Below, piece by piece: positions 3,811 to 51,105 of a stretch of DNA of 64,000 nt. Made by a program: the position numbers and the translations under genes. Positions within the stretch are counted from its first letter, which is position 1, and every line of letters starts with the position of its first letter. The notes under the pieces are model-generated. The model saw nothing but the letters and a program-made list of their open reading frames with translations. It ran no database searches and was not told the DNA's origin. Source of the DNA: Desulforamulus reducens MI-1. GTDB taxonomy: Bacteria; Bacillota; Desulfotomaculia; Desulfotomaculales; Desulfotomaculaceae. The stretch is taken from contig NC_009253.1 of assembly GCF_000016165.1 (NCBI RefSeq), positions 372,001-436,000 on the forward strand, given 5' to 3'.

Positions 3811-5793
3811 TTATATGCATAGGGCTATGATCTCAGACATTACCTGCTGGTTTGTAAAACCCTTAAGATCTGCGGCACCGCAGCGGCATGTGGCTGCACA
3901 GGCACCACAACCCTGGCATAAACCAGTATTAATAGCAGCCACAGTGCGTTGGACTCCCTGCCCCATTGATTTATCAGTGATTAATTTTTCTTCAATGGCA
4001 TTGAAGGGACAAACATCACGGCAGGCCATACATCCGGTACAACGTCTTTCATCAATTTGGGACACCATTGGGTTGGTGGCTAGTTCGTCTTTAGATAATA
4101 GCACGATTACCTTGGCGGCTGCTGCACTGGCCTGGGATACAGTGTCTGGAATATCCTTGGGACCCTGGCAACATCCAGCTAAAAAGATACCGCCGGTATT
4201 GGTTTCCACAGGCTTAAGCTTGGGGTGGGCTTCCTGATAAAAACCATCTTTGTCTGTGGTAAACCCAACTACCTTGGCCAATTCATCCGAACCTCTGCTG
4301 GGTGTCATAGCTGTGGCCAATACCACCAGGTCTGTCTCAACCTCCACCGGTCGCCCCAGCAGGGTGTCTGCACCCCTGACTACTAATTTTTCACCCTTGG
4401 GGTAAATTTTTGAAACTCGACCCCTTATGTAACAAGCACCCTCATTCACCGAACGCTGATAAAATTCCTCATAACCCTTTCCTGGAGTACGCACATCCAT
4501 GTAGAAGACATAGACTCTGGCCCCTTCAATCTTTTCCAGTATCTGTTGAGCGTGTTTAGCCGTGTACATGCAGCAGGCCCTAGAGCAGTAAGACTTACCC
4601 TTTGATTCATCCCTGGAGCCCACACATTTAATAAACACTATACTTTTAGGTTCTTTGCTGTCCGACGGCCGAAGTATTTTACCACCGGTAGGACCGGAAC
4701 TGTTAAGTAGTCGTTCAAATTGCAAGCTGCTGATGACATCTGGATACTTACTGTGGCCGTATTCTCCGTAAGAACCAGCCCAATCAAACAAGTCATAGCC
4801 AGTTGCCATGACCACAGCCCCTACTTGTTCTTCAAAAAATTGCTCTGTATCCTTATAATTGATTGCCTCCGCCTGGCAAACTTTCTGGCAGACACCGCAT
4901 TTACCACTTAAAAGCATACGGCATCCCTTTGGGTCAATAATTGGCTTGTTCGGTACAGCCTGGGGAGAACTGATGTAAATGGCTTTTCTTTGTCCCAGGT
5001 GTAGGTTATACTCGCTGGGGACCTTAGCTGGACATTTTTCCCAGCAAGTGCCACAGCCTGTACATTTGTTATGGTCCACATATTTTGGTTTTTGTTTAAT
5101 TCGAACATTAAAGTTTCCGATAAAGCCGCTTACCTCGCAAACCTCAGCAAAGGTATAAAGCTTAATGTTAGGGTGCTGTACCACAGCAACCATCTTGGGG
5201 GTGACAATTCAGCCACTGCAATCCAGCGTGGGGAAGGTTTTATCAAGCATAGCGGATTTACCGCCAATGGTTGGTTCTCGTTCCACCAGCACAACTTCAT
5301 GGCCGGCATCAGCAATATCCAGGGCAGCCTGAATACCAGCAATACCTCCGCCAATGACCAGTGCCCGCTTGGTAACCGGAATCCTTTCTTCATATAGGGG
5401 CTCTGTGTTGTTCGCTTTAGCGACAGCCCGCCGTACCAGTGCAATGGCCTTTTCCGTAGCTCCATCTTTTTGCCGGCTGTGTACCCAGGCACACTGTTCC
5501 CGGATATTGGCAATTCTCATCATAAATGGATTAAGCCCGGCCCTTTCTAGGGTCTTTCGAAAGGTTTGCTCATGTAACCGTGGGGAGCAAGATGCTATTA
5601 CCACTTTGTCCAAGCGATATTCACTGATTTTCTGAACAATTAAATCTTGTCCTGGTACTGAACACATATATTTATAATCGGTGCTAAAAACCACTCCGGG
5701 AAACTTGGCTGCTTCCGTAGCCAATCTCGGTACATCAACAACACTGCCTATATTGGAACCACACCAGCAAACAAAAACGCCAATTCTGTTCAT
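3811..5793 (-). CDS. hdrA: CoB-CoM heterodisulfide reductase-like subunit A, selenocysteine-containing
   Basis: Read as one 660-aa flavoprotein with an in-frame TGA (5209-5211) as selenocysteine 195. Upstream of the TGA lie the N-terminal domain (residues 1-140, with VCWCG and an ASCSPRLHE block) and the FAD-binding GGGIAG motif near 150. The sequence LDCSG-[TGA]-IVTPKM matches the family block DCSACILTPKM, so the TGA replaces the second cysteine. Downstream, the same frame continues with no gap into a ferredoxin motif CTGCGTCWEKCP (near 244), the thioredoxin-reductase-like core and two C-terminal 4Fe-4S motifs (CTGCMACRDVCP, CQGCGACAATC). A SECIS-like hairpin follows the TGA. HdrA is a known Sec-containing family in methanococci and some sulfate reducers. 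It is the electron-bifurcating or electron-distributing flavin subunit of HdrABC. A naive reading gives two truncated genes (5209-5793 and 3811-5193). Confidence 0.88.
5172..5191 (-). promoter_or_regulatory. bacterial SECIS-like hairpin for hdrA
   Basis: Starting 17 nt after the TGA, the message reads GGT-T-GCTG-TGGTA-CAGC-ACC. This is a 3-bp lower stem, a bulged U, a 4-bp upper stem and a 5-nt apical loop containing GGU. A bulged U plus GU in the apical loop is the known recognition pattern of bacterial SelB, as in the E. coli fdhF SECIS. The hairpin lies inside the coding sequence, as bacterial SECIS elements do. Confidence 0.75.
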
Positions 5794-5815
5794 ATCTTCG
5801 CCCCCTCTGGCTAAA

Positions 5816-6670
5816 CTAGCTTATTCTGGATAACATAGCTTTAGCTGTCATTAGGTCCATACCCAGGCAATTGGGTTCTATCCCCAAAGATAAACCCAAT
5901 AATTGGGTAAAATAGAAAACAGGTAATTTTAAATCAGTATTGAAGACCTTATTCATTTTATTTTGTTTCATATCAAGGTTAAAATGGCACTGGGGGCAGG
6001 CAGTAATAATGCAGTGAGCACCGGCTTCTGCAGCGCTGGACAAAATATCTCTGGCCAGCTTTAAAGAAATATCCTCATTGGTTACGGATAGAGAACCACC
6101 ACAACATTCAACCTTATGGGTCCAGTCTACGGTTTCTGCACTGGTGGCCCTTATTAAATTATCCAAAATTTGAGGGTCTTCAGGATCATCAATTTCTACT
6201 ACGTTTGATGGACGAACAAGTAAACAGCCATAATATACCGCTACTTTTAATCCCTCTAGGGGTTGTACCACTTGGGATTGAATTTTTTCAGCAGTAAGTT
6301 TAGAAAAAACCTGAATAAAGGATTGTATTTTAACGCCGCCCTGGTAAGGTTGGCCAGTTGCATCGTTAATTTTTTCCCTCAGATCAGGATCTCCGGTTAA
6401 TTTCCAGTTGGCATAGGACAGGGATTGATAGCAGGCAGCACAGGGAGAAGTTACATCCAAACCCATCTGCTCAACCATATGTAAATTACGGGCACATAGG
6501 GCAATTGGAAGGTATTTGCTGGAGGCATGGGCAGCACTGGCACCACAGCAATTCCAGTCTGGTATTTCTACTAATTCGATGCCAAGGAATTCACTTACTA
6601 CTCGGGCAGACATATCATAATCCTTAGCCATTGTTTGTAAAGAACAGCCGGGATAATATGCAATTTTCAT
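5816..6670 (-). CDS. hdrB: heterodisulfide reductase-like subunit B
   Basis: This 284-aa protein has the two cysteine-rich CCG domains typical of HdrB, which ligate the non-cubane 4Fe-4S clusters at the disulfide-reducing site. Domain 1 shows YYPGCSLQ near residue 5, NCCGAS near 41 and PCAACYQS near 77. Domain 2 shows YYGCLLVRP near 145, VECCGGS near 190 and CPQCHFNLD near 230. It starts 1 nt after the hdrC stop and is followed 22 nt later by hdrA, so the operon order is hdrC-hdrB-hdrA. In sulfate reducers and acetogens the true disulfide or other electron acceptor of such complexes is often unknown. Confidence 0.93.
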   Translation of the reverse strand: MKIAYYPGCSLQTMAKDYDMSARVVSEFLGIELVEIPDWNCCGASAAHASSKYLPIALCARNLHMVEQMGLDVTSPCAACYQSLSYANWKLTGDPDLREKINDATGQPYQGGVKIQSFIQVFSKLTAEKIQSQVVQPLEGLKVAVYYGCLLVRPSNVVEIDDPEDPQILDNLIRATSAETVDWTHKVECCGGSLSVTNEDISLKLARDILSSAAEAGAHCIITACPQCHFNLDMKQNKMNKVFNTDLKLPVFYFTQLLGLSLGIEPNCLGMDLMTAKAMLSRIS

Positions 6671-44116: not shown

Positions 44117-44220
44117 CTTTTAGGATGATTTATTTATTATGTACTATTAGTAATAATAAGCAATTATTGCAGGTTTTTAAAATATTATGTCGAAATAGAA
44201 CTAACTAATAATTTGAAACT

Positions 44221-44303
44221 GAAGGGCAAACCCGAACGAAAGACGGGGACGCAAAACCTTGGGTCTAAGGTTCTAGGAATGAACTATTGATTGCCAGGCT
44301 GCA
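44221..44303 (+). promoter_or_regulatory. c-di-GMP-I (GEMM) riboswitch
   Basis: The block GGGCAAACCCG-AACGAAAGACGG-GGACGCAAAACC followed by GGGTCTAAGG and ATTGATTGCC-AGGCTGC matches the GEMM-I consensus: AGGGCAAACC, the GNRA-type GAAAG loop of P1b, the conserved GGACGCAAA joining segment and the receptor side. A terminator follows directly. It lies 270 bp before a soluble chemoreceptor gene, a usual target for this class. Confidence 0.9.
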
Positions 44304-44304
44304 A

Positions 44305-44337
44305 AAGAAAAAGGGCAGCCATGCCCTTTTTCTTTGT
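44305..44337 (+). terminator. riboswitch expression-platform terminator
   Basis: AGAAAAAGGGCA-GCCA-TGCCCTTTTTCT forms a strong stem with a T-rich tail. GGCTGC at the riboswitch 3' end can instead pair with GCAGCC in the terminator's left side and loop, so ligand binding could switch termination. Confidence 0.82.
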
Positions 44338-44348
44338 TTAGCAAATCA

Positions 44349-44456
44349 GAAAGCATAAAACTTTCCGACTTGCATAAGGGCAACTAAGGCTTACGCCATC
44401 GCCTAAAGGCTTTCGTGCGGCGCAAGCCAAGTTTTCTTTAGGAAATTATGCTTTTC
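44349..44456. repeat. dispersed long-palindrome repeat, copy 1
   Basis: The inner arms GGCTTACGCC (44388-44397) and GGCGCAAGCC (44419-44428) enclose CCTAAAGG...TCGTG; outer arms AAGCATAA...TTATGCTT extend the palindrome. It shares its left flank (TAAGGGCAA.T.AAG) with copy 2. This copy lacks about 14 nt of the inner right arm. It lies between the riboswitch terminator and the downstream gene. Confidence 0.8.
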
Positions 44457-44572
44457 GAAAACTGTAGATAACTTTAATCGCCCGTAGGATGAATTTGTTC
44501 TTGCCAGTATTGTTGTAAGCAATTGATTTAAAAGAATGTAAGAAATAATAAATTTATGAAAGGGAGTTAATA

Positions 44573-45394
44573 ATGAATTCACAAAAGCTACAGGTGTTAA
44601 GCGAAGTGTTAGAGACGATTAAAGATATTTTTCCTATGGATTGCATGATTAGCTTAACGGATCGGGAGAAATTTCTAAAATATTTACCAGGGGATAAAAT
44701 TGATGTCAAGGTTAAGGCTGGGGACAAACTGGCTCAGGGGGATGCCATTGATGCTTCCTTAAGCACTGGAAAGAAAAGTGAAGTAATGGTCCCTGTAGAA
44801 GTTTTTGGTTATCCCTTCAAAGCTGTTGCTCTGCCTGTTATAGAAAATGGGGAAGTCATTGGGAGTGTTGGGGTCGGTTTTGATATTTCTGCCCAAGAAG
44901 AGGTTGCTAGTGTGTCTGAAACCCTGGCGGCTTCAACCGAGGAAATTAGCAGTAGTGTAGAGGAAATGGCAGCATCGGCCCAACAACTGACGGCAATGCA
45001 GACCCAATTAAGTGCTGTGGCTCAGGAGACCAATAGCAGGCTCCAAAAGACCGATGAAATCCTTAAATTTATTAAAGATATTGCTGGGCAGACTAAGCTA
45101 TTAGGTTTAAATGCAGCCATAGAAGCAGCAAGGGCCGGAGAGGCAGGCAGGGGATTCCATGTGGTTGCCGATGAAATCAGAAAGTTATCGGACCGCAGTG
45201 CTGTATCTGTTAAGGATATTGCAGATATAGTGCACGAGATCCGGAATAATACCAATAAACTATTGGAATTTGTAGAAAAAACAAACCAAATTAGTGAAGG
45301 ACAATCCGAGGCAACCCAGTACATTGCCAAGGCAATTGAAGAAAACGCAAGGTTAGCTGAGAACTTAAGTAATGTTTCAAAGAATATGCTGTAA
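44573..45394 (+). CDS. soluble methyl-accepting chemotaxis protein
   Basis: The protein has 273 aa and no membrane segment. Residues 1-115 form a small PAS/Cache-like sensor ([47 protein letters not shown]) and residues 120-273 a short signalling domain ([34 protein letters not shown]). GGGAG precedes the ATG. It lies downstream of a c-di-GMP-I riboswitch with its own terminator, so its expression probably follows c-di-GMP levels. The ligand is unknown. Confidence 0.9.
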
Positions 45395-45480
45395 AATTGA
45401 TACAAGACCTTTCATTGTATACTAAGTATTACGGAGACATATCCGAGGTTTATTAGGGTATGTCCAGGAAGGCTCTTTTT

Positions 45481-45600
45481 ATCTGGAAGCATTATAACTT
45501 TCTGGCCTGCGTAAGGGCAAATTAAGCTTCCGCCAACGTCTAAAAGACTCTCGTGTCCTTTAGGTATGGCGGAAGTTTATGTTTTTCTAAATTGCAGAAC
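45481..45600. repeat. dispersed long-palindrome repeat, copy 2
   Basis: GCTTCCGCC (45526-45534) pairs with GGCGGAAG (45568-45575), with inner arms CTAAAAGA...TCCTTTAG. Compared with copy 3, both arms have changed (TTACGCC/GGCGTAA to TTCCGCC/GGCGGAA), a compensatory substitution. Left flank AAGCATTATAACTTTCTGG matches copy 1. Confidence 0.8.
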
Positions 45601-45643
45601 CTTTGTTAATAGCAGTGAGGTTTCAGGAACTGCAGGCAGCTTC

Positions 45644-46555
45644 TCAAAGTTTAGCCCTTCCCATTTCTGTTATTACCTGCAGCATATCTTCGGCTAAAGG
45701 AATTTGAAAGGACATTGGGTGACCAGTTCTGGGGTGAAGGAAGGATATTTTATCGGCATGTAAGCAATGGCGGCCTATTTGAGCGATACTGCCGCCGTAG
45801 AGTGTATCTCCTACCAAAGGATGTCCCAAATGTGATAAATGAACCCTTATCTGGTGGGTTCTACCAGTTTCAGGCATTAAACGGATAAGGGTACAATCTG
45901 TAATATATTGTAGAACCTCAAAACGAGTCAGCGCTTGCTGGCCGGTACTTGATATTTGACGTTTCGTGGTTTTTCCTTCACACTTTTCCAAAGGTAGGTC
46001 GATGTAGCCATTCCTTTGAACAATCTTACCATGAACTAGGGCAACGTATGAGCGAGCCAGTTGTTTACGTTTCCTCTGTAAGAACAGTTTTTGTGCACTG
46101 TAGGAGTTTTTAGCCACCAATACAAGGCCTGAGGTATTACGGTCAATGCGGTTTACGGCATGAAAGGTGGGCGCTGGGTTGTTCTCTAACCAGTGATAAA
46201 CTAAGCCATTGGCCAGGGTACCGGAAGGGTAGGCCAAGGTTGGGTGAACACACATACCGGGCTGTTTATTGACCAAAGCAATATCTTCGTCTTCAGAGAT
46301 AATCGACAAGTCCAACGGTTCCGGTGGCAGGTACTGGTTTCGAGGGGGAATGGGATATATCAGGACCACTTTGTCACCAGTGTTAACGATGGTACGCCAG
46401 GTGACCTTAGCGCCATTGCAAAGAATTTCCCCTTCATTTCGGAGTTTTTTCAATGCTCTATCCGAAATATCCTTGTGTTTAAGAAAATCTCTAAGGAATT
46501 TACCGTTCTGGCTGGCTTCCACACAAAGGACAACCTGGTTATTTGCACAGACCAA
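45644..46555 (-). CDS. RluA-family pseudouridine synthase
   Basis: The protein is about 303 aa from TTG 46555, 8 nt after GGGAGG; an ATG at 46579 lies before the site. An S4-like N-terminal segment (FLRDFLKHKDISDRALKKL) precedes the catalytic domain, with HAVNRIDRNTSGLVLVAK near 137 carrying the catalytic aspartate and RLMPETGRTHQIRVHL near 222. It isomerises uridines in rRNA or tRNA; the site is not predictable. Its start overlaps the end of the MATE gene, so the two are coupled. Confidence 0.92.
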   Translation of the reverse strand: MVCANNQVVLCVEASQNGKFLRDFLKHKDISDRALKKLRNEGEILCNGAKVTWRTIVNTGDKVVLIYPIPPRNQYLPPEPLDLSIISEDEDIALVNKQPGMCVHPTLAYPSGTLANGLVYHWLENNPAPTFHAVNRIDRNTSGLVLVAKNSYSAQKLFLQRKRKQLARSYVALVHGKIVQRNGYIDLPLEKCEGKTTKRQISSTGQQALTRFEVLQYITDCTLIRLMPETGRTHQIRVHLSHLGHPLVGDTLYGGSIAQIGRHCLHADKISFLHPRTGHPMSFQIPLAEDMLQVITEMGRAKL

Positions 46556-47912
46556 TCTTTTTTCCTCCCATTGCCGCATTTCGTTGAACGATAACCATAC
46601 GAATCAGTAAGCTTGTTGCACCTATGGCTAGACCCACAATAAGTCCTACCCAGTAGCCAAAGGCTGCCAGGGGCGTATAGAGGGAAAGGATATGTCCCAG
46701 GGGCAGGCCAATAACCCAGTATGAGGCCAGTGCAACAATAAATGAAACATTTACATCCTTATAGCCCCGGAGTATTCCCTGCACCGGTGTGGCGATGGCA
46801 TCAGAAAGTTGAAAGAAAAGGGCATATACTAGGAACTGCTGGGTCAATTTAAAAACCGTCTGATCTTTGGTGTACAACCCAGCCACTTGATCGCCAAAGA
46901 GCAGTAGACCAATGCCACAGCAGACAGCCATTCCCACCGCAATACCTAACCCCAATAAACTGTATTGTTTAGCATCGGAGTATCGCTGGGCACCTACTTC
47001 AAAACCAATGGTAATAGTTAGGGCCATGGAGATACTTAAGGGCACCATATATAAAAATGAGGCAAAGTTTAAGGCGGCTTGGTGTGCAGCGATGGTAACG
47101 GTGTTATACTGACTCATCAATAGTGTTACCCCAGAGAAAACACTGGTCTCAAAAAAGATAGAGAAGCCAATGGGTATACCCAGCTTAAGCTGGGTTCGCC
47201 AAGCGGAGAAAGAGATACCAAGCCATTTTTTAAAAAAATTGTAACAGGAAAAGGGCTCTACCCTGTGCAATACATAAAGAGCAATGAAAAAAACACACCA
47301 ATAAGTTATGGCTGTTGCATAACCTGCACCCACGCCACCCAAACGGGGAAAACCCAGCTTGCCAAAAATCAGTACGTAATTTAATAATATGTTGATGGGC
47401 AAGGACAGCAACGTAATAAACATAGACACCCGTGTTTGGCCCAGGGCATCAATAAAGCAGCGAAATATGGTATAGATGAACAGGGGGGTAATGCCGAAGG
47501 AAAGCCCCACTAAGTAACGTCTGGCAATGTCCCGCACGGGTGACTCCAAGTGCATGGTATTTAAAACTGGTTTTAATGCGATGGCACCACAAATAAGAAC
47601 AATAATGGAAATGGCAATGGCCAGATAGCTCCCTTGGATTACCGTAAAGGGGACATGGTCCCTCCTTCCCGCTCCTACAGACTGGGCAATGATGGGGGTT
47701 ACAGCCAGTAAAATGCCCGTAATGCCAGTGGAAATGGGTACCCAGAGGCTGGAACCGATGGCAACCCCGGCTAGATCCCTGGCCCCTGCATTGCCGGACA
47801 TGACTGTATCCAGCATGACCATGGCAGAAAGTGAAATTTGAGTAATAAGTATGGGCCATAATATTGTCATAAATTGGAGTATTTTTTCCTTTGTGGAGAA
47901 TGTTTTTTTCAT
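46539..47912 (-). CDS. MATE-family multidrug/sodium antiporter
   Basis: This 457-aa protein has twelve hydrophobic segments and the MATE pattern of two homologous six-helix halves: ILITQISLSAMVMLDTVMSG at the N-terminus, PISTGITGILLAVTPIIAQSVG near 58, and SIFFETSVFSGVTLLMSQYN near 255. It exports cationic drugs or metabolites using a sodium or proton gradient. It is the upstream gene of a two-gene unit with rluA. The substrate is unknown. Confidence 0.93.
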   Translation of the reverse strand: MKKTFSTKEKILQFMTILWPILITQISLSAMVMLDTVMSGNAGARDLAGVAIGSSLWVPISTGITGILLAVTPIIAQSVGAGRRDHVPFTVIQGSYLAIAISIIVLICGAIALKPVLNTMHLESPVRDIARRYLVGLSFGITPLFIYTIFRCFIDALGQTRVSMFITLLSLPINILLNYVLIFGKLGFPRLGGVGAGYATAITYWCVFFIALYVLHRVEPFSCYNFFKKWLGISFSAWRTQLKLGIPIGFSIFFETSVFSGVTLLMSQYNTVTIAAHQAALNFASFLYMVPLSISMALTITIGFEVGAQRYSDAKQYSLLGLGIAVGMAVCCGIGLLLFGDQVAGLYTKDQTVFKLTQQFLVYALFFQLSDAIATPVQGILRGYKDVNVSFIVALASYWVIGLPLGHILSLYTPLAAFGYWVGLIVGLAIGATSLLIRMVIVQRNAAMGGKKIGLCK

Positions 47913-48056
47913 GGTTCCTACCTAATAGAGTATTTTTAAAATAACATTATATCATCTTTATTGCTTAAAAAGACTTTAGGTGCTAAAAAATCGATTTTCC
48001 AATTTCTCTGAGGTACTATTTAAAATAACTAACTGTTTAGGAACGGAGACTGACAT

Positions 48057-49196
48057 ATGGGGGTAAGTATCAGGGATACCTTGAGTTTGGACATTCTTAA
48101 AGGTGCCAAGGTTATCGCCGGGCAAAGGGGCTTTAATCGTCTGATCAAAAGGGTGAGCGTCATTGAGTGTCCGGACTGTCAGGATTACAAAGAACTTTTA
48201 AGAGAGGGAGATTTCTTTCTAACAAGTTTTTATGCCGTAAAGGATGATCCGGGGCTTTTAGCCATAACAGTATCGACAATCATTGAGTCCGGTTCCAGCG
48301 GGTTGTGTTTGTTGGATCTTTATATGGAAGATCTACCCGAAGAAATTAAAGCACTGGCCAACCGCAAAAATTTTCCTATTATTATGATCTCAAAAGATTT
48401 GCCCTATGCAGAGATTATTACAGAGATTATGGATTTAATTATCCAGAACAAAGAAAATATTATTGTAGAAATGCAAGTGGATAAGTTATTGCTGGAAAAA
48501 GATGGAAGCAGTATAAAAGGTTTAGCACTTCAGATTAATAATAAATTTTGTAATAATGTTGCTGCCATTTTTATTACCAGCAAGCAAGGGGTAAAAAGAC
48601 GCCTTTTAAACTTGAAGGAGAGTTTTCAGGGGCAGGAAAGTTGGTCGGTCATTTCCTATAAGAGGGGTATTCTGCTGTTAATCAGTACACCCTATCAGGT
48701 GGAGAACCACCAATCAATAAAAGAGCTAAATTCTATTATCCAAACCATTGAGGGGACAACTAAAAACTATTATTTGGGGATTAGTAGACATTATTCAGGT
48801 CTTGAAAACCTAGGCCTGTGTATTAAAGAGGCAATGCATGCCAATGAACTAGGTGAAAAAGTTTTAGAGCAAAAAATAACCATGTACAAGGACCTTGGAG
48901 TTTACCGGGTTTTATCTGTGGTTAAAGAAACCCCTGAATTGAAAGAGTTTCATGATGAAATCATCTTACCTTTACAGGAATACGACCGTAAAAACAATAT
49001 GAATTTATTTAAGACCGCAGTATCCTATATCGAAAATGACGGGGATGTAAATAAAACAGCCCAGGAACTTTTTCAGCATAGAAATACTATCCGCTATCGT
49101 TTGATGAAGATCAAAGAAATTTTAAAGATGGAAGGCTTAGAAGGAAGTTTTTATGAACAATTATCAGTAGCGATCAAAATTCATAAGATGTTATAG
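48057..49196 (+). CDS. PucR-family transcriptional regulator
   Basis: This 379-aa protein has an N-terminal PucR domain (residues 1-130, with AGQRGFNRLIKRVSVIECPD and the EGDFFLTS block), a middle GGDEF-like degenerate region with a diffuse LGISRHYSGLENLG block near 245, and a C-terminal HTH_30 (NKTAQELFQHRNTIRYRLMKI, about 340-360). It is placed directly before the peptide-uptake operon on the same strand and is the obvious regulator candidate. Family members respond to purine or amino-acid-related metabolites. Confidence 0.9.
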   Translation: MGVSIRDTLSLDILKGAKVIAGQRGFNRLIKRVSVIECPDCQDYKELLREGDFFLTSFYAVKDDPGLLAITVSTIIESGSSGLCLLDLYMEDLPEEIKALANRKNFPIIMISKDLPYAEIITEIMDLIIQNKENIIVEMQVDKLLLEKDGSSIKGLALQINNKFCNNVAAIFITSKQGVKRRLLNLKESFQGQESWSVISYKRGILLLISTPYQVENHQSIKELNSIIQTIEGTTKNYYLGISRHYSGLENLGLCIKEAMHANELGEKVLEQKITMYKDLGVYRVLSVVKETPELKEFHDEIILPLQEYDRKNNMNLFKTAVSYIENDGDVNKTAQELFQHRNTIRYRLMKIKEILKMEGLEGSFYEQLSVAIKIHKML

Positions 49197-49230
49197 CACT
49201 TGTTTTATTTACAAAACAAGTGCTTTTCTT
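49195..49230 (+). terminator. terminator after pucR-like gene
   Basis: AGCACTTGTTTT pairs with AAAACAAGTGCT, followed by TTTCTTTTT. Confidence 0.9.
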
Positions 49231-49424
49231 TTTGGATATTTAACAAAGGTCAGAAAAAAATCTTGTCGAATTCACCTAGAATACTATTGAATATGTATAA
49301 AAAAATCTACATATTCATGCACGTAAAGGCAGGGTGGTGAAACAGAACCACGTTAACGTTATTTGGGGGTGACAAAGGGAAGAAAGAATGGTTCTATATC
49401 TAAAATTTTACCGGGGGTGGTCTT

Positions 49425-51008
49425 ATGAGTAATAAAAGAACGAAATTAATGGTAGCCATTGTGTTGCTGGTCTTTGCACTTACGGTTGTTACAGGTTGCG
49501 GAGGTGGAAATCAAGGAGGTTCCGGCGGGCAGAAGGCTAAAATTGCCTATTATGCCTTTAACAGTGAACCAGTGCTGGATTGGGATCCCAGTGTGGAGTT
49601 TTCCAATGGTATCGCAGTTATGAACAACATTTATGAAACCCTTTTAAGGTTTGATCCGGAGCAAAACAAAATCATTCCTATTCTTGCAGAGGAATATTCA
49701 AAATCAGAAGATGGTTTGACCTGGGTTTTCAAACTGAGAAAAGGTGTTAAATTCCATGACGGAACTGAAATGAAAGCCGATGCAGTTAAGTATTCCATTG
49801 AGAGAACAAAGAAAATAAACAAAGGTGCAGCCTATATTTGGGATTCCGTAAAGGAAATCAACATCAAGGATGATTACACAGTTGAGTTTAAATTGAGCTA
49901 TGCGGCCCCGGTGGATTTAATTGCCAGTTGTGGTTATGCAGCCTTCATTATGTCACCAAAGATTGCTGAGCAGCCCGAAGGTTGGTTCTCCCAGGGAAAT
50001 GAAGCAGGTACCGGCCCCTATAAGCTGCAAAGCACTAAGAAGGGCGAAGAAGTGGTACTGACTCGCTTTGATGAGTATTGGAAAGGCTGGGAAGGCAACC
50101 ACTTTGATAAGGTGATTGTAAAGAAGGTTCCAGAAACTGCTTCCAGACGTCAGTTGGTTGAAAAGGGTGAGGCAGATGTAACCATTGAACTTCCCTATGA
50201 AGACGTTGAAGCGCTGAAGAACAATGCCGACGTACAAATACTGGATGCCCCTGCTTTCCAAAACCTATTCTTCTGCTTTAATACAGAAAAGGAACCGTTA
50301 AATAATAAACTTGTAAGGCAGGCCCTATCCTACGCTTTCCCCTATGAAGATGTAGTGAAATATGCCATGGGCAACTATGCTACCCAGGCCAAGGGGCCCA
50401 TACCTTATGGGCACTGGGGACATGGAGACAACCTGTTCCAGTATAAGCACGATTTGAATAAAGCAAAGGAATTGTTGGCCCAGGCGGGCATCCCCAATGG
50501 TGGCTTCAAACTTCTCTTAACCTACATGTCCGGGGATGAAGCTGAAAAGAAAACAGCGGAGCTCTATAAAGCGGAACTGGCTAAGCTGAATATTGAATTG
50601 GAAGTAAGGGGCATGCCCTGGGATAGTCAGTGGGAGTTGGCCAAGAGCAAAGATGCCAAGAGCAGACAAGATATCTTAGGTATGTACTGGTGGGTGGATT
50701 ATGCCAGCCCCTACAGTTGGTTGTACAGTCTATATCACTCCGAGAAGGATCCATTGTTTAACTTAAACTATTATAAAAACGAAAAGTTTGATCAGTTAAT
50801 TGATGAAGCCAATAGTAAGAGCGGTATTGACAGAGCTGCGGCTGAACAAATGTATATTGAAGCGCAAAAGATGCTAATTGAAGATGCACCGTCCATTTTC
50901 ACCTATGATAAGAAATATGTTTGGGTGCATAATAAGCAATTCAAAGGTCTCAAGAGCAATGCAGCCTACCCCAATACCATATTCTTTTATGATACTTACC
51001 GTGAATAA
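49425..51008 (+). CDS. peptide ABC transporter substrate-binding lipoprotein
   Basis: This 527-aa family-5 solute-binding protein has a lipoprotein signal with hydrophobic stretch and lipobox VVTGC (Cys25), then a Gly/Ser-rich linker. The SBP_bac_5 signature FKLRKGVKFHDGTEMKADAVKYS lies near 104-125 and PYGHWGH near 325. It delivers oligopeptides or related compounds to the permease. It is the first gene of a seven-to-eight-gene operon. A long-palindrome repeat lies between it and the permease gene and may stabilise or separate its mRNA. Confidence 0.93.
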   Translation: MSNKRTKLMVAIVLLVFALTVVTGCGGGNQGGSGGQKAKIAYYAFNSEPVLDWDPSVEFSNGIAVMNNIYETLLRFDPEQNKIIPILAEEYSKSEDGLTWVFKLRKGVKFHDGTEMKADAVKYSIERTKKINKGAAYIWDSVKEINIKDDYTVEFKLSYAAPVDLIASCGYAAFIMSPKIAEQPEGWFSQGNEAGTGPYKLQSTKKGEEVVLTRFDEYWKGWEGNHFDKVIVKKVPETASRRQLVEKGEADVTIELPYEDVEALKNNADVQILDAPAFQNLFFCFNTEKEPLNNKLVRQALSYAFPYEDVVKYAMGNYATQAKGPIPYGHWGHGDNLFQYKHDLNKAKELLAQAGIPNGGFKLLLTYMSGDEAEKKTAELYKAELAKLNIELEVRGMPWDSQWELAKSKDAKSRQDILGMYWWVDYASPYSWLYSLYHSEKDPLFNLNYYKNEKFDQLIDEANSKSGIDRAAAEQMYIEAQKMLIEDAPSIFTYDKKYVWVHNKQFKGLKSNAAYPNTIFFYDTYRE

Positions 51009-51015
51009 AACAGTG

Positions 51016-51105
51016 TCATAAGGGGAGCTAAGGCTTACGCCGTCGCCCAAAGGACCTCGTGTCCTTTGGGTATGGCGTAAGCCAAGTTTCTTTAGCCCCT
51101 TATGA
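51016..51105. repeat. dispersed long-palindrome repeat, copy 3
   Basis: This is a near-perfect 90-bp palindrome: TCATAAGGGG...CCCTTATGA outside, GGCTTACGCC (51032-51041) with GGCGTAAGCC (51074-51083), then CCCAAAGGA (51046-51054) with TCCTTTGGG (51062-51070) around CCTCGTG. It sits inside the operon between the binding-protein and permease genes. Confidence 0.88.

Follow-up and report, generated by a model that had tools for sequence, protein, structure and literature searches.

A two-hairpin, gene-less repeat of Desulforamulus reducens and other Bacillota that probably inserts behind intrinsic terminators

Three long palindromes lie in a 64,000-nucleotide window of the Desulforamulus reducens MI-1 genome (one contig of 3,608,104 bp, genome G000). 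We are confident, short of certainty, that they are copies of a two-hairpin, gene-less and non-autonomous mobile DNA element of about 90-115 nt, and the element probably inserts at DNA in which a hairpin is followed by a T-tract. From 5' to 3', the element begins with a covarying hairpin (H1, about 34 nt long), followed by the linker ATAAGKGCAA(A)CTAAG, by a second, GC-rich hairpin (H2) and by a tail, which is either AAGTTTTCTTTA or AAGTTTTTCTAA. The family consensus, comprising H1, linker, H2 and T-rich tail, reads (T-tract) R GCAAATCAGAAAGTATAAAACTTTCCGACTTGC ATAAGGGCAACTAA GGCTTACGCCGTCGCCTAAAGGCTCTCGTGCCCTATAGGGTATGGCGTAAGCC AAGTTTTCTTTA, and copies normally end on the right with CTTTA. 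A second subfamily of ~94 nt has the tail AAGTTTTTCTAA and a single inner hairpin within H2. The linker and the 3' tail remain single-stranded in the fold; when folded as single-stranded DNA, the terminator, T6, H1, linker, H2 and tail form separate units (z -6.7). The element is of the MITE- or REP-like kind, with an unusual targeting.

The three copies in the window

The palindromes had been described in the initial annotation as sharing nested arms, GGCTTACGCC/GGCGTAAGCC and CCCAAAGGA/TCCTTTGGG, around TCGTG. All three were found in the window sequence where that annotation had placed them. The nested arms are exact in copy 3 but not in copies 1 and 2, and although the palindromes belong to a real repeat, the repeat unit is larger: H1, the linker and the T-rich tail had been missed. 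No Rfam 15 family matched the window copies at the gathering score, and permissive searches gave only sub-threshold matches (E up to 1), which lay near copies 1 and 2 and near one copy from PH28_bin88. Coordinates are collected in Table 1.

Table 1. Positions of the window features and of the identical copies elsewhere in the genome (window numbering unless indicated)
Feature	Position	Strand	Basis and remarks
c-di-GMP-I riboswitch aptamer	44215-44306		RF01051, 62 bits; own terminator, to 44335
Terminator-like hairpin and T-tract	44304..44335	+	Arms AAAGAAAAAGGGCA/TGCCCTTTTTCTTT, perfect; directly 3' of the c-di-GMP-I aptamer; target site of copy 1
Copy 1	44340..44440 (about)	+	Model R1 match G000:416340-416440, 120.5 bits; alignment A1
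Copy 2	45481..45589 (about)	+	Diverged; model R1 match G000:417476-417589, 84.3 bits
Copy 3	51017..51094	+	Linker, H2 and tail, without canonical H1
Extended palindrome around copy 3	51016..51105	+	Sequence and folds
Identical copies, 94-nt subfamily	791748, 1618840, 1933437, 2376798, 2929134, 3068336, 3241349		Own genome (genome positions)

Copy 1 has all four parts, H1, linker, H2 and T-rich tail, with the inner second hairpin CCCTATAGGG deleted from H2, and its GGCTTACGCC faces GGCGCAAGCC, resulting in an A.C mismatch. The riboswitch terminator lies on one side of it and a chemoreceptor-like gene at 44573-45394 (MCP-signal protein; Pfam) on the other. Copy 2 lies 3' of the same gene, facing a convergent pseudouridine synthase gene (Pfam), and carries the arm change from TACG to TCCG that had been noticed initially, together with the matching change of the partner from CGTA to CGGA. 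Copy 3 occupies the gap between two genes identified by Pfam, an SBP_bac_5 gene that extends to 51008 and a permease gene that extends from about 51125. Its inner arms are perfected to CCCAAAGGA/TCCTTTGGG, and its outer arm, GCCCCTTATG, lies outside the usual right boundary and repeats the linker, CATAAGGGG, in inverted form. The RNA fold of copy 3 has an energy of -59 kcal/mol (z -8), and most other copies match it over positions 8-85 when it is used as the query. Further strong inverted repeats with arms of 22-32 nt occur in the window at 817-885, 29959-30014 and 28521-28594, unmatched to the element family.

Dispersal, recent movement and target site

The genome-wide covariance search that had been proposed for further copies returned 93 matches in the D. 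reducens genome, far above chance, with a model built from 32 copies; sequence queries gave 44 matches with copy 3 and 49 with the consensus. The same kind of search counted 89, 54, 26, 6, 3 and 2 copies in six congeners and zero in two congeners and in one other genus of the family, and a class-wide model search added two carrier genomes from another family of the same order. A 23-nt pattern spanning linker and H2, TAAGKGCAACTAAGGCTTNCGCC, detected at least 116 stretches in GTDB representative genomes of Bacilli and Clostridia. Among the matches listed, the carriers include Natribacillus, Lentibacillus, Virgibacillus, Oceanobacillus, Scopulibacillus and Pullulanibacillus among the Bacilli, and PH28_bin88, Formimonas, Desulfosporosinus and Peptococcaceae among the Clostridia. 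Across these Bacillota carriers the layout is constant and the linker and tail are nearly invariant, whereas the H1 sequence varies yet stays paired. IMG/VR (exact pattern), phages and plasmids gave no match, each searched by one short query or exact pattern. In Oceanobacillus halotolerans (L148, L171, L194, L213 and other loci), the element sits within a larger conserved repeat, a composite family with ..CCACGTCGAGGCTTGGCTTATGCTTGGCA.. upstream and ..TCGGGGGTGATCAAGGCGCTT.. downstream.

The suggestion that the palindromes could be MITE-like and mobile is supported by copies that are identical despite different flanks, by empty sites in related genomes and by the occurrence of copies in two classes of Bacillota. 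Seven copies of the 94-nt subfamily in the D. reducens genome are identical across 93 nt, from GC to CTAA, in entirely different flanks, and recent copies have precise ends. The base preceding GC is A in five of the seven and G in two, which suggests that this base belongs to the target. Some of the identical copies could have arisen by gene conversion. At the xpt locus of D. reducens, GACCGGTTACTATGCCGGTC TTTTTT is followed by the element and then by TTTTTATTCAC...GACATGGAACTT, and the sequence behind xpt is devoid of the element in all seven congeners read. The terminator GACCGG..CCGGTC is recognisable at the empty site in three of these seven (G001, G006 and G008), and several congeners also retain the downstream ATGGAACTT. 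Conversely, the jag-mnmE interval carries elements in G001 and G008, behind the terminator CCCAGCA..TGCTGGG-T6, and a matching terminator without an element in G000 and G007. Because they are recognisable in the empty sites, the terminators at both loci predate the insertions; as the comparison of filled and empty sites spans diverged species, the junctions are not fixed to the base. G001 and G008 are about 92% identical, and each of the six orthologous sites compared carries an element in both, which argues for slow movement in this pair. A target-site duplication, one of the checks proposed initially, was not visible, and none was consistent by eye in 60+ copies; the T-rich flanks could conceal a short one.

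The placement of copies next to terminators had gone unremarked in the initial annotation. On the fetched loci, a score for a hairpin plus T-tract recognised a terminator immediately upstream of the element, on the element strand, at 38 of 64 copies in D. reducens and 11 of 25 in the congeners, and at the 3' side of only one of 64 and one of 25, respectively. As controls from the same loci, random positions scored in 46 of 1500 cases (3%) and positions after any T-tract in 250 of 2573. In other Bacillota, the terminator was upstream at 30 of 62 copies, versus 2 of 62 at the 3' side and 30 of 1500 at random positions. In about 40% of copies no terminator was recognised, which is due in part to a strict scorer. 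The left end of the element would be placed against the T-tract after a DNA hairpin, mostly the intrinsic terminator of a gene, and in the direction of transcription. At four loci (L165, L229, L281 and L091) a copy immediately follows another copy's right end, an arrangement that is expected if H2 with its T-rich tail also counts as a target. Copies in D. reducens are co-directional with replication more often than the open reading frames of the same loci (64 of 76 versus 114 of 161, p 0.036, assuming the origin at base 1 and the terminus at the midpoint). This bias would fit insertion into the lagging-strand template, without proving it.

Candidate mobilisers and related systems

A trans-acting enzyme would presumably recognise the folded single strand, that is, a hairpin with a T-tract. 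The search for a RAYT or other transposase that had been recommended found no transposase, RAYT, reverse transcriptase (RT) or larger element with these ends. A larger element was likewise absent at the extra places with an H1 motif and in 80 loci, save for one pair: in L153 (minus strand, 4625-5878), an element core and a right-end motif are 1,253 nt apart, the sole such spacing in the scan. We set aside RT-based mobility, as the single RT of the D. reducens genome (the only RVT_1 match) sits in a locus resembling a diversity-generating retroelement (DGR). In this locus (L041, G000:C1:1301000-1305500), the RT, of about 353 aa, is accompanied by nearly identical repeats of template-like and variable-like type and neighbours phage-like genes.

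As a specific form of the mobile-element explanation, the repeat might be REP- or PATE-like and moved in trans by a Y1 (HuH) transposase of the IS200/IS605 or RAYT group, with the T-tract as the left cleavage target and the right cleavage site within the tail. The lack of a visible target duplication, the subterminal hairpins, the insertion in a fixed orientation 3' to a short T-rich target and the replication bias are all in line with such an enzyme; many Bacilli carriers have a Y1 gene of ~190 aa, and the linker TAAGG could pair with the CTTTA of the tail as a guide and cleavage pair. However, the only Y1 gene of D. reducens belongs to a tnpA/tnpB element (L040) whose ends are unlike the repeat by eye, and of 30 Y1 loci in 16 carrier genomes, none has element ends on both flanks, so that Y1 is not the obvious mobiliser. 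The nearest cases are L281, where a Y1 pseudogene has a full copy with a perfect core and right end about 340 nt away on one side, and L273, where a weak Y1 match lies near a right-end motif with one mismatch. In addition, UBA5318, though only a metagenome bin, carries copies without a Y1 match, G004 and G006 have Y1 genes with zero copies, and the element has no GTAG tag. We regard a Y1 mobiliser as possible rather than probable.

Among known systems, the element resembles MITEs (reviewed in PMC10969869) in being short, gene-less, present in many copies, intergenic and hairpin-forming, and it shares with them the character of a short non-coding dispersed element with recent and precise movement. 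It differs in having neither a simple terminal inverted repeat joining its ends nor a target duplication that could be seen, and in its oriented insertion behind terminators; no parent insertion sequence, and no terminal inverted repeats of one, were found at the extra H1 sites or in the 80 loci, the L153 pair aside. REP sequences, like the element, are high-copy extragenic palindromes with preserved pairing (PMC2817692, PMC3733652). Yet a REP is defined by a GTAG or CGTC tag and a single palindrome of 20-40 nt (PMC3733652), whereas our element has two hairpins in ~90-115 nt, no such end tag and no flanked RAYT gene. A REP/BIME identity, one of the options proposed initially, is not supported in the strict RAYT-driven sense. 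PATEs of the IS200/IS605 family (PMC7290912) are likewise ends-only and oriented, with subterminal hairpins; they lack a target duplication, and none was visible for our element. No IS200/IS605 element with the ends of our element was found (own Y1 locus L040, by eye). The pneumococcal BOX, RUP and SPRITE repeats (PMC3049150), to which the element has no known sequence relation, are also modular hairpin repeats, and BOX and SPRITE share its association with 3' ends. At one end SPRITE resembles a terminator and has a T-rich tract, and its copies are concentrated at the 3' ends of genes (PMC3049150); SPRITE is itself terminator-like, whereas our element adjoins a pre-existing terminator. Group IIC introns insert 3' of a DNA stem-loop by recognising its structure (PMC10190682), unlike our element in possessing a ribozyme and an intron-encoded protein that a sequence of 90-115 nt lacks; no Rfam intron matched in the window. 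Overall, the element behaves as a MITE or PATE whose choice of target is similar to that of group IIC introns.

Insertion just 3' of terminators represents a nearly harmless niche in compact genomes. The niche immediately behind terminators is known chiefly for group IIC introns, and a tiny gene-less element appears to have found it in both Bacilli and Clostridia, raising the question of whether terminator-like DNA might be a general landing site for single-strand transposition. The right end of the element, H2 with its T-rich tail, itself resembles a terminator with its T-tract, and donor end and target could share recognition. A bolder and rather doubtful reading is that the repeats constitute an undescribed, Bacillota-wide class of minimal mobile elements, in which the right end mimics a terminator, a single mode of recognition, of a hairpin plus T-tract in single-stranded DNA, operates and the mobiliser is an enzyme of the host or unlinked to the element; if true, the same recognition would serve the donor end and the choice of target. 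We found no earlier description of the element by topic or motif string in a literature search with subscription journals mostly outside its scope, where a prior report is possible. Entered in Rfam or insertion-sequence databases, this class of repeats may account for many intergenic hairpins of Bacillota that lack an explanation.

Pairing, possible function and change of copies

Unpaired arm changes in further copies had initially been named as a refutation, and the answer is mixed: covariation exceeds most column shuffles, but many cells have merely decayed. Since RNAalifold misses H1 on the D. reducens copies, the three-helix structure was counted as stated. Over 32 copies, 89% of pairs are standard and nine pairs show two-sided changes; the column pair of the TACG/TCCG change is AU in 27 copies, CG in one and unpaired in four. 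Compensatory changes in this genome exist but are few. The covariation score of 0.116 was reached by no shuffle, and slid versions scored at most 0.058. Depending on the measure, 0 of 500 to 26 of 500 column shuffles were as high as the real alignment; these fractions are not probabilities. Related sequences may exceed shuffles without constraint, so the comparison is supportive only. Near its foot, H1 shows all four Watson-Crick pair types across Bacillota. The H1 finder alone is loose, with 24-25% of shuffles passing versus 91% of real sequences in Desulforamulus and 56% in others, and the evidence for H1 therefore rests on the excess over shuffles and on the diversity of pair types.

The repeats could instead be a functional cis-acting RNA, such as a back-up terminator, 3'-end stabiliser or attenuator, maintained by selection, with vertical descent and recombination as its main routes of spread. 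Such an RNA would suit the strong conservation that linker and tail show in two classes, the covariation of H1, the placement behind terminators with H2 followed by a T-rich tail, and the position of copy 3 between a binding-protein gene and its permease gene. This explanation is nevertheless improbable in view of the recent identical copies in unrelated flanks, the empty sites in relatives and the patchy presence within one genus. Moreover, departures from pairing favour neither strand consistently, A.C being more frequent than G.U in H1 and G.U dominant in the outer part of H2. Most copies probably persist as neutral passengers at a site where they do little harm, and some may be co-opted as mRNA barriers or attenuators. 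An effect on mRNA stability, as had been considered initially, is most plausible for copy 3 at 51016, between the solute-binding-protein and permease genes. The stable hairpin of this copy is not followed by a free T-tract and could protect the mRNA upstream or act as an attenuator of the genes downstream.

The paired changes had been taken to indicate selection or copying of the paired form. Selection does not follow from compensation alone, and several copies fit a different process: template switching at quasi-palindromes would give perfected arms, inverted loops and changes of modules. Whether such switching, rather than selection for pairing, accounts for the compensatory arm changes is evenly balanced in our judgement, and the question concerns the covariation, not the existence of the element. 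The copy at 1188106 shares with copy 3 long arms that have been perfected with several simultaneous changes, and the outer arm of copy 3 is its own linker inverted. Copy 3 probably represents palindrome perfection through template switching, which makes the compensatory argument weaker than it appears for this copy. The H1 loop is inverted relative to H2 in L095, L101 and L102, as if flipped. On the other hand, the many different H1 stems that are still paired across Bacillota are not readily attributed to switching. After insertion, copies would change further through template switching and as inner mini-hairpins are gained or lost. When G001 and G008 are compared at their orthologous sites, the inner module, either CTCGTGCCCTTTAGGGTA or a reverse-complement form, has been gained or lost, and the H1 type at jag-mnmE differs between the two genomes. 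In PH28_bin88 (L144, L210, L214 and L215), H2 of the element encloses a nested second unit, which is GCATAAGTGCGACTA..CAAGTCTTCTTTA or closely similar.
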